A stretch of DNA of 64,000 bases, from assembly GCA_009780575.1 (NCBI GenBank), contig WQZU01000002.1, positions 1-64,000 on the forward strand, written 5' to 3'. The position numbers were made by a program, and so were the translations under genes. The notes below the pieces were generated by a model. That model was not told where the DNA came from, did no database searches, and saw nothing but the letters and a program-made list of their open reading frames with translations. The DNA is from Candidatus Methanomicula labiotermitis. GTDB lineage: Archaea > Thermoplasmatota > Thermoplasmata > Methanomassiliicoccales > Methanomethylophilaceae. Below are positions 61,315 through 64,000 of this stretch, one piece after another (within the stretch, counting starts at the first letter, position 1; each line of letters begins with the position of its first letter).

Positions 61315-61561
61315 TTAATAATATAAAAAAGCTTCCATCAATATCCATTCGCCGCATAAACACAATCCCTGTTTAAAAAAGAGGTTTTACGGATACCTGG
61401 TAACTTTATACTGGACAGCTATAACGACTGTTATAAGATGAAATAAACGGAGAGTTATAATGAATTGGATAATTCATCCATCCATAAAAGCCTTTATTTA
61501 CGCTCTACCGATACGAGTGCATAACATCTAATTGTTTCAATTACAGATGGAGGAAATCATT
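61315..61561 (+). promoter_or_regulatory. promoter region of the corrinoid protein gene with inverted repeats
   Basis: A TATA-like CTTTATTTA at about 61492-61500 predicts a start near 61520 and a leader of about 45 nt with GGAGGAAAT before ATG 61562. Upstream lie two small inverted repeats: CTATAAC/GTTATAA around GACT (about 61420-61438) and TGAATTGGATAATTCA (61460-61475). They are candidates for substrate-responsive control of methyltransferase genes. Confidence 0.5.
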
Positions 61562-62191
61562 ATGAGCGCAGAAATGGACGCACTTATAGACATAGTTGTC
61601 AACGGGAAAATCAAAGAAGCAAAGGATGCAGCACAGAAGTGCCTTGATGCAGGTGTAGAACCGCAGATCATAATCTTCGAAGGGCTTTCAAAGGCAATGG
61701 CGATAGTTGGTGAAAAGTACGCGGCGAAGCAGTACTTCCTGCCGCAGGTTCTTCTGTCGGCGAACACACTTTATCAGGGTCTTAACCTCGTTCTGCCTCT
61801 CCTGAAAGGAAAGGGCGGAGCGAAAGGAACGGTCGTTCTCGCAGTGGTCGAGGGCGATGTCCACGACATCGGAAAGAACATCGTGAAAGCAATGCTCACC
61901 GGTCTCGGCCTTAACGTCATAGACATGGGCAAGGACGTACCGATAAAGGACATAATCGCAAAAGCGAAATCCGAGAAGGCGCAGATCATAGCGGAATCAA
62001 CGCTTATGACCCCGACGCTTGAGGGAATGAAAGAGACAGTGAAGATCCTCAAGGAAGAGGGCATGACCGCCAAGACGAAGCTCATGATCGGCGGCGGCGC
62101 GACATCACAGGAGTTCGCAACACAGATCGGTGCGGACGGATGGTCATACGACGCCGTTGAAGCAACGAAAGTCGCACAGAAATTCCTGTAA
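61562..62191 (+). CDS. methyltransferase corrinoid protein (MtbC/MttC/MtmC family)
   Basis: A 209-residue corrinoid protein: helical N-terminal domain (about 1-85) and Rossmann B12-binding domain (about 88-209) with the cobalt-ligand motif EGDVHDIGKNIV (His101) and GGGATSQEFA. It carries the methyl group between a substrate methyltransferase and a coenzyme M or tetrahydrofolate methyltransferase. The substrate (methylamine, methanol, methoxy compound) cannot be told without its partner, which is not directly adjacent. Start chosen from GGAGGAAAT; a longer frame from 61532 is less likely. Confidence 0.93.
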   Translation: MSAEMDALIDIVVNGKIKEAKDAAQKCLDAGVEPQIIIFEGLSKAMAIVGEKYAAKQYFLPQVLLSANTLYQGLNLVLPLLKGKGGAKGTVVLAVVEGDVHDIGKNIVKAMLTGLGLNVIDMGKDVPIKDIIAKAKSEKAQIIAESTLMTPTLEGMKETVKILKEEGMTAKTKLMIGGGATSQEFATQIGADGWSYDAVEATKVAQKFL

Positions 62192-62297
62192 ACGACAACA
62201 ACCAAACCTTTTACAATAACCCCTTTATTTTACGGATGCGGATGCTACTGTATCATTTCTTATTTTTCACCGAAACCGCGGTTCAGACGATCAAAAG

Positions 62298-62334
62298 TTA
62301 TACGGTATACTGTTTAAATAATTTATACGGTATA
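62298..62334 (+). promoter_or_regulatory. TATA box bracketed by two 12-bp repeats
   Basis: TTATACGGTATA occurs at 62298-62309 and again at 62323-62334, on either side of the TATA element TTTAAATA (62313-62320). The repeat itself is nearly palindromic (TATACGGTATA). The second copy lies between TATA and the start codon at 62343, which is itself at the predicted transcription start. A bound factor would block promoter access, so this looks like a double repressor site. Confidence 0.75.
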
Positions 62335-62342
62335 TTGGCACC

Positions 62343-64000
62343 ATGGCGCAAAGGTCCGAATTCGACGCATGGGTGCTGGAATGGATCACCGGCGAGAAAG
62401 CAAAAGGAAGAAAATGTTTCGATGTGAAGAAGTCCGGTAACTCCTATTACGTGTATTATCAGACAACGAGATACAATTCAGAGCTCAAAAAGCGGGAGAA
62501 GGTCAGCGGCTATCTGGGAAAATTGGTTCAGGGGATCGGTCTCGTGGAACCGGACCGACCGGAAGAATCGATGAAGGACGAGATATCCGTCGCCAGATAC
62601 GGACTCGGAATAGACACCGGAGGAACGTTCACGGATGCGGTTATAATAGACATCGACGACAATTCGGTAATCGCCAAAAGAAAATCGCCGACAACGCATC
62701 ATGATCTTTCGAAAGGACTGCACACATCCGTTGATTCGGTGTTCGAATCGTGTGATATAAAACCGGAGGACATCTCATTGGTGGGAATATCAACAACGCT
62801 GGCAACGAATTCGATCCTGGAAGGAGCGGGAGGAGAGGTCGGCCTCATCCTCATAGGATGGGATCCGATGGAACCGGTGAGTTTCGGCGAGAAGCACCAG
62901 GTGTTCATCAAAGGCGGATTCGACAGCAGAGGGCGCCCGGCAGAGCAGCTTGATGAGAAAGAAGTCCGCAAAGCGGTAAAGACCGTCAGTAAAGGAGTGA
63001 ACGCGATAGCGATATCGGGTCTTTTCTCAACGATGAACATATCGCAGGAAGTAAGGGTAAAAGAGATCGCCGCGGAGATGACTGGCCTTCCGACGGTTGC
63101 CGGTCATGAACTGTCGGCAACACTGGGCATAGACATCAGAACGGAGACCACGGTCCTCAATGCAAGACTGATCCCCGTGGTCAGCAAATTCTTCGACGAC
63201 GTAAGGAAAACGTTCACATCCAAAGGGATAACGGCGCCGATCATGGCGTACAAAGGCGACGGTTCGGTCATGGATCTGGACCAGGCGAAGATGTATCCGG
63301 TGGAAACGATCCTTTCGGGACCGGCCGCGAGCTCCGTCGGAGGAACAGCGCTGTCGGGGATCGAGAACTGCGCGATCATCGACATCGGCGGAACATCCAC
63401 GGACATAGCGATAATGGACGAAGGATTTCCGATGATACAGGAGGAAGGCGCAAACGTCGGCAAATGGAGGACGCGCGTGAAAGCGGTGGACATGTACACG
63501 GTCGCGCTCGGAGGGGATTCAAGGATCACGCTTCATAATTCAAAATTCACGATAGGCCCGGACCGCGTCACTCCGCTGGCGACGCTTGTGCAAAGGTATC
63601 CGCATGTTACCGAAAGAATAATGTTCAACGACCTCACCGATTACTATGTGGCATGCGATGATGAGGGCACATCCGTGATGACGGAAAGGGAGAAAAGGGT
63701 TTATGACGGGATGAAAGGAAAGGGACCGATGACGTCACTGGAGATACGCGATTCGACAAGCGGTCTCTGGACGGTGTCCGATGAACTCGCGTCCTTAACA
63801 AAAAAAGGCATCCTGGAAGCGTCGGAACTGACGCCGACGGATGTTATGATATACTTGAAAAAATTTGAACTGGGCGACCCGAAGGGCGCGGAGGCGGGAG
63901 TCCACGCGATATCGGAAAAACTTGGCATGACGACGAAGCAGGCGGCCATGATAATGTTCGAAGAGATCAAAATGAAGATCTCGGAAGCACTCATGACGAA
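62343..64000 (+). CDS. hydantoinase/oxoprolinase family protein, partial at the right edge
   Basis: The first 552 residues of a hydantoinase/oxoprolinase (HyuA-type) protein; no stop is reached. The ATPase motif GLGIDTGGTFTDAVII lies at about 88-103, and SGPAASSVGGTA and IDIGGTSTDIAI (about 340-365) follow. Residues about 1-62 form an unusual N-terminal extension (KSGNSYYVYYQTTRYNSELK ... VSGYLGKL) that resembles the N-terminal part of certain transposases as I remember them. Its position 150 bases after a corrinoid protein suggests an ATP-dependent role in corrinoid methyltransfer or activation of its substrate; this is inference. Predicted leaderless start under the double operator. Confidence 0.85.
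   Translation, partial: MAQRSEFDAWVLEWITGEKAKGRKCFDVKKSGNSYYVYYQTTRYNSELKKREKVSGYLGKLVQGIGLVEPDRPEESMKDEISVARYGLGIDTGGTFTDAVIIDIDDNSVIAKRKSPTTHHDLSKGLHTSVDSVFESCDIKPEDISLVGISTTLATNSILEGAGGEVGLILIGWDPMEPVSFGEKHQVFIKGGFDSRGRPAEQLDEKEVRKAVKTVSKGVNAIAISGLFSTMNISQEVRVKEIAAEMTGLPTVAGHELSATLGIDIRTETTVLNARLIPVVSKFFDDVRKTFTSKGITAPIMAYKGDGSVMDLDQAKMYPVETILSGPAASSVGGTALSGIENCAIIDIGGTSTDIAIMDEGFPMIQEEGANVGKWRTRVKAVDMYTVALGGDSRITLHNSKFTIGPDRVTPLATLVQRYPHVTERIMFNDLTDYYVACDDEGTSVMTEREKRVYDGMKGKGPMTSLEIRDSTSGLWTVSDELASLTKKGILEASELTPTDVMIYLKKFELGDPKGAEAGVHAISEKLGMTTKQAAMIMFEEIKMKISEALMT

Follow-up and report, generated by a model that had tools for sequence, protein, structure and literature searches.

A transposase-derived domain marks the ATPase of a corrinoid methyltransfer operon as a candidate autoregulator in Methanomassiliicoccales

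Comparison of sequences suggests that an exapted transposase DNA-binding domain makes the ATPase of a corrinoid operon a regulator of its own gene. We consider this explanation probable as a whole, that is, inclusive of a single acquisition of the N-terminal domain within one clade and of the assignment of the protein to a HyuB-independent HyuA-type ASKHA ATPase of a corrinoid:CoM methyltransfer cluster. The observed support consists of the homology of the domain, the confinement of the fusion to a single clade, the selection acting on it, the operon context, the operator pairs and the co-occurrence of these pairs with the fusion. The features discussed here (Table 1) lie in, or run on from, the analysed window, which comprises positions 1-64000 of a 70,294-base contig in a genome of 1.37 Mb.

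Table 1. Features of the corrinoid-hyuA locus; positions past 64000 are those of the contig.
Feature	Position	Strand	Basis and remarks
Palindromic box TGGAYNNNNNRTCCAWCCA, upstream of the corrinoid gene	61466..61484	+	In 24/25 such loci, fused or not
Orphan methyltransferase corrinoid protein, 209 aa	61562..62191	+	Pfam B12-binding and B12-binding_2; adjoins hyuA across the order
Candidate operator site 1, TTATACGGTA	62298..62307	+	Exact match; conserved at fused hyuA promoters
TATA-like element TTTAAATA, between the operator sites	62313..62320	+	Sequence and conservation in the genus; putative promoter role
Candidate operator site 2, TTATACGGTA	62323..62332	+	Exact match; ends 10 bp before the start codon
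HyuA-type ATPase gene, 736 aa	62343-64553 (contig numbering; leaves the window at 64000)	+	Pfam matches
IS1634-derived N-terminal domain, residues 1-84	62343..62594	+	Homology; folded part ~4-72, pI ~9.6
HyuA-type ASKHA ATPase core	62601..64000, on to contig position 64553	+	Pfam, alignment, AlphaFold model, Foldseek
Winged-helix-like insert, residues 440-497	63660..63833	+	Alignment; AF2 helices 448-457, 465-471, 479-487
MtaA-like CoM methyltransferase	64632-65687		PRK06252, 321 bits, over cut-off
RamA-type activator, full-length	65787-67415		TIGR04270, 716.9 bits, cut-off 500

The locus opens as the sequence-only reading had it, with a methyltransferase corrinoid gene followed by a HyuA-type gene and with no substrate methyltransferase adjacent. 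The corrinoid protein matched both B12-binding (E 3e-24) and B12-binding_2 (E 5e-18) and scored 179.6 bits against TIGR02370, under the cut-off of 215.3; judged by its sequence, it is a relative of the Pyl-type methyltransferase corrinoid proteins, yet separate from them. Downstream of hyuA come the MtaA-like and RamA-like genes and then the DUF169, Lrp regulator and McrA-thioamidation YcaO genes, in that order, an arrangement (corrinoid, HyuA, UroD/MtaA, RamA, often DUF169, Lrp and YcaO) that is kept across Methanomassiliicoccales. Neither hyuB nor a substrate methyltransferase gene was found among the cluster genes, the continuation of the contig past the window included. The ordinary oxoprolinase pathway that the earlier reading had entertained as an alternative to the right of hyuA is not there, and was rejected, hyuB being absent. 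The source genome encodes Pyl-type methyltransferase genes, and its known substrate methyltransferases lie at other loci, each beside its own corrinoid gene, with mono-, di- and trimethylamine and methanol as the substrates assigned from sequence.

Related arrangements were recorded both in this genome and beyond it. In other families of the order, an MtrA-MtrH pair adjoins the cluster on its RamA side (L058:1592-3262; also L059, L064, L068). On contig C29 of the same genome, a second orphan corrinoid locus (L005:6420-11898) comprises corrinoid, UroD methyltransferase, CobW GTPase and small genes together with an unfused HyuA paralogue, and similar loci are present in other genera. A third, lone HyuA paralogue is located on contig C4 (L006:8570-10546), away from any corrinoid gene.

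The N-terminal extension of the HyuA protein, previously put at about 60 residues, actually spans ~84, whereas the transposase likeness ascribed to it holds: residues 1-84 match the N-termini of DDE (IS1634) transposases from the same order (best E 3e-16, 47% identity), with W10, W14, G22, YVY36-38, K53, Y57, G59 and L61 invariant in the alignment. The fused protein yielded no DDE_Tnp_1 match, i.e., no catalytic DDE domain. The basic N-domain (pI 9.6) contrasts in charge with the acidic core (pI 5.3). The predicted model of the isolated domain was of moderate confidence (pLDDT 75), and Foldseek comparison of its fold with solved structures returned nothing at E below 0.2. An IS1634-family element resides in the same genome (contig C37, L117:6625-8212), bounded by 32-bp terminal inverted repeats that are 91% complementary; its transposase (C37:6761-8203) is an open frame placed in this family by NF033559 (169.8 bits, cut-off 100).

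Searching 147 genomes of the order with the N-domain retrieved fusions in 21 of them, distributed over five genera of one family and with open frames in 21/21, and the remaining matches were transposase-like frames. The 16 fused proteins placed in a tree grouped as a single clade, and its sister proteins are unfused but have the same operon neighbours. Fused hyuA adjoins the corrinoid gene in all fused loci examined having enough sequence, in keeping with the earlier proposals that the ATPase belongs to a corrinoid methyltransfer locus and that homologues with the extension would be met near corrinoid proteins. Genome G003 has a 4-kb insert between the corrinoid gene and hyuA, and there the operator pair stays with hyuA.

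The N-domain is under stronger purifying selection than the ATPase core. Between genera, its identity is 72% versus 59% for the core, and its dN/dS is 0.04, 0.02 and 0.04 versus 0.08, 0.09 and 0.12 in the core (genera g1, g7 and g6, respectively), ratios that are approximate because saturation of synonymous sites is nearly reached in g1 and in part in g7; in the linker, dN/dS is 0.16-0.38. These values bear on the idea that a transposon insertion left the extension behind as a neutral scar, in frame by chance, as might be imagined from its transposase source and from the persistence of such elements, one of them in the same genome. Yet the 21 intact copies, the N-domain dN/dS of 0.02-0.04 and its better conservation relative to the core make this explanation scarcely credible, and the selection test refutes it. 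The N-domain may instead have another role, in protein contact.

Exact TTATACGGTA occurs in the 64-kb window only at the two candidate operator sites, which bracket the TATA-like box upstream of an ATG start codon; the hyuA transcript is predicted to be leaderless. In the 147 genomes, inverted TTATACGGTA pairs were detected at nine places, 9/9 at fused hyuA promoters, and direct pairs at 14, nine of which are fused hyuA promoters, whereas two lie elsewhere in fused genomes and three in unfused genomes. The two off-promoter pairs in fused genomes map to the promoter of a second hyuA (G001) and between hgcAB and a peroxiredoxin gene (G003). Altogether, an exact pair in either orientation is present at 17/21 fused promoters; those of G021 and G128 combine one exact and one degenerate site, and those of G030 and G068 retain a single degenerate site, TTATACAGT. 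These last, both g2 fusions, have the most diverged N-domains (59-61% identity). Relative to the start, the pairs lie at about -45/-20 in genus g1 and at about -67/-42 in most others, with a spacing mostly of 24-25 bp. At unfused orthologue promoters, none of nine intergenic regions (0/9) contained TTATACGGTA, the genome-wide pair scans likewise placed no pair there, and single sites elsewhere in the genomes were at about background level with respect to a reversed control.

The hgcAB site is an observation in its own right: in this relative (G003:C117, L266:1794-3082), the mercury methylation genes hgcA and hgcB were identified with 458.7 and 141 bits, over the cut-offs, and an operator pair of the fused-hyuA type follows directly downstream, ahead of the peroxiredoxin-like gene. 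Inheritance of the operator from transposon ends was considered and rejected. In a matrix test on four elements, a fraction of 0.10-0.57 of random windows scored as high, and the similarity between the operator and the terminal repeats of related transposons (four elements) was not significant. Two spots in the window, at 61385 and 62228, have TTTTACGGA-like letters in common with the terminal repeats of the genome's own element.

In the mechanism that we favor, a HyuA-type ATPase of the clade ancestor would have captured the N-terminal domain of an IS1634-family transposase in one event, and the captured domain most likely kept or re-evolved sequence-specific DNA binding. This domain would recognize the TTATACGGTA pairs at the promoter of its own gene and regulate hyuA, probably by repression in genus g1, because one site there separates the TATA-like box from the start codon. 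The ATPase core probably works for the corrinoid system, either handling or reactivating the corrinoid protein in an ATP-dependent manner or sensing its state, and the fusion would couple the state of that system to hyuA expression. Against autoregulation, another clade-specific regulator could own the TTATACGGTA sites. Fusion and operator share essentially one origin because the fusion arose once, and the history of the operator amounts to roughly one gain, partly lost again in one subclade.

The corrinoid gene is itself preceded by the palindromic box TGGAYNNNNNRTCCAWCCA, which appears to be the site of a separate regulator. The backwards-read control of its pattern gave 0 matches in 15 genomes. 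The box also precedes the second corrinoid-UroD operon (L115:6190) and mtaC; mcrB, an atwA-like ATPase gene and a NifH-like gene apparently have it upstream too (loci L293-L322; names from sequence). It has the look of a regulon site for methanogenesis in this order.

Pfam matches of the HyuA protein begin at residue 88, with Hydant_A_N (E 2e-33; 115.8 bits, cut-off 25.2) and Hydantoinase_A (E 6e-31; 108.2 bits, cut-off 22.9), the latter covering only profile positions 1-146 of 291, and the ATP-binding motifs DTGGTFTD, DIGGTSTD and GVGAPA are conserved in the alignment. N-methylhydantoinase, acetone/acetophenone carboxylases and caprolactamase come closest to the AlphaFold model (pLDDT 85), with Foldseek E values of 2e-24 to 7e-32 to solved relatives (6yra, 5svb, 5l9w, 9h03). 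Both Pfam and PDB matches end ahead of an insert of ~58 residues, predicted to be a winged helix, between the motifs GGDS and TPTD; this insert is acidic (pI 4.8), and it is therefore unlikely to bind DNA. HyuA relatives are present in 57/61 genomes of the order searched, and HyuB (PF02538) was detected in 1/61 and not in the genome under study, while six control genomes matched. HyuA without HyuB is typical of Methanomassiliicoccales.

HyuA proteins phosphorylate an amide or carbonyl oxygen. Acting in this manner on a methylated substrate, HyuA would stand in for a substrate methyltransferase and feed the orphan corrinoid protein, an explanation in line with the chemistry of the closest solved relatives, which phosphorylate amide/carbonyl groups, with a cluster devoid of a substrate methyltransferase and with the related HydA of bacterial glycine betaine clusters (PMC9768040). 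We nevertheless regard it as quite improbable, given that the HyuB partner is missing from the own genome and from 60/61 relatives, that the homologue coexists with substrate methyltransferases in the bacterial clusters, and that the MtaA-like neighbor could, by analogy, perform both half-reactions, as MtsA is reported to do.

The sequence-only reading also raised the possibility that the ATPase is a new activator of the corrinoid protein. A role as the missing ATP-dependent activator was rejected as the best reading because a full-length RamA is already present in the cluster, and the domain search located RACo_C_ter and RACo middle domains and Fe-S in this neighboring protein and found them absent from HyuA. 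The ATPase might still reactivate or chaperone the corrinoid protein as a second ATP-dependent factor, either resembling GlmL or substituting for RamA; its N-domain would then only anchor it to a partner protein, and the operator would be that of another regulator. This is unlikely in our judgment: although the ASKHA fold and the co-localization of HyuA with corrinoid, MttB, DUF1638 and RamA genes in several phyla argue for it, RamA occupies the same cluster, HyuA has no Fe-S or RACo domains, the operator pairs track the fusion and some HyuA homologues are distant from corrinoid genes. The MutL/GlmL model PF13941, also in its favor, scores just above the cut-off of 27 on the ATP-binding part (29.8-30.7 bits), over ~64 of 450 profile positions, and the GlmL equivalog model gave 27.6 versus a cut-off of 475, i.e., no full-length GlmL/MutL family match. 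The ROK Pfam model scored 18.2-19.2 bits, under its cut-off of 22.9. Since RamA is encoded next door, our preferred guess is that the core of the proposed autoregulator acts as a helper, chaperone or sensor in corrinoid methyl transfer.

In a survey of 295 genomes of the phylum, at least 85% complete, strong HyuA matches (E below 1e-60) were found in 49, all within the methanogenic order, and 49/49 carry this corrinoid type, a co-occurrence confounded by shared descent. In a wider scan of one genome per species (~85,000 species), Bacillota, Chloroflexi, Desulfobacterales, Coriobacteriia, Methanosarcina and Methanolobus were found to encode HyuA relatives next to corrinoid, MttB, RamA and DUF1638 genes, and Rhizobium and Rhodobacteraceae to encode them in other gene settings. 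DUF1638 and RamA-like proteins have been implicated in B12 reactivation (PMC5764234). That the family always accompanies corrinoid genes was rejected, as a corrinoid, substrate-methyltransferase or RamA gene lies within 6 kb at 65/143 HyuA-family loci only, some homologues are far away, and one alphaproteobacterial clade has zero such genes within that distance. In an uncultured Oceanospirillaceae genome (L190:4274-12994), HyuA, a corrinoid gene, DUF1638, a pterin-binding protein and RamA share one stretch, and the HyuA-corrinoid link therefore extends to that gammaproteobacterial family.

A wider reading, which we put forward tentatively, is that the HyuB-less HyuA might be an ATP-dependent sensor or reactivator of corrinoid methyltransfer turned feedback transcription factor through the captured transposase domain, and thereby a prokaryotic host-transposase fusion whose own paired operator has on occasion been extended to further corrinoid genes (in G001, the second hyuA; in G003, the site by hgcAB). 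If autoregulation holds, this would be a clear archaeal case of a transposase DNA-binding domain becoming the autoregulatory module of a metabolic ATPase, with an operator that can be read from the genomes and an unfused sister clade to serve as control. Attention is also drawn to a widespread, unexplained HyuB-less HyuA-type ATPase that often accompanies corrinoid methyltransferases in methanogens and anaerobic bacteria. The open-access literature returned nothing linking hydantoinase with Methanomassiliicoccales, nor on such an archaeal fusion.

Among known systems, caprolactamase CapA, the ATPase subunits of acetone/acetophenone carboxylases and N-methylhydantoinase have the same ATPase fold and act with further subunits or domains, whereas the present protein is without HyuB and has in addition the winged-helix-like insert and the transposase domain. 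RamA/RACE reductive activators are likewise ASKHA-type ATPases of corrinoid methyltransferase operons; unlike HyuA, they possess RACo and Fe-S domains, and the RamA gene is here two genes downstream of hyuA. HydA (N-methylhydantoinase A/oxoprolinase) occurs in the glycine betaine methyltransferase cluster of Ca. Formimonas warabiya, Sporomusa ovata and Frackibacter, and proteomics revealed it to be more abundant with the substrate (PMC9768040). These clusters resemble the present locus, as described rather than by sequence, in housing a HyuA-type ATPase gene within a corrinoid methyltransferase cluster, but they are bacterial and include MttB-type substrate methyltransferases. Closer in taxonomy, MA4395/MA4396 of Methanosarcina acetivorans, predicted hydantoinases near mtsF/mtaCB2 (PMC11619418), are also archaeal HyuA-like genes adjoining corrinoid methyltransferase genes; a Methanosarcina HyuA homologue in a similar setting (L180) has 650 aa and no N-terminal extension.

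With respect to the fusion itself, IS1634-family transposases share homology with it over their N-terminal ~75 residues, and their catalytic DDE domain is absent from it. The human proteins SETMAR and CSB-PGBD3 are host-transposase fusions that affect gene expression (PMC6326780, PMC3459987) and, similarly, join a transposase-derived segment to a host protein; they involve other transposon families, whereas here an IS1634 N-domain is carried by the ATPase of an archaeal metabolic operon. Finally, the conserved putative operator at its own promoter (17/21 exact pairs) likens the fused protein to autoregulated DNA-binding proteins, following what would be a ROK-like logic.
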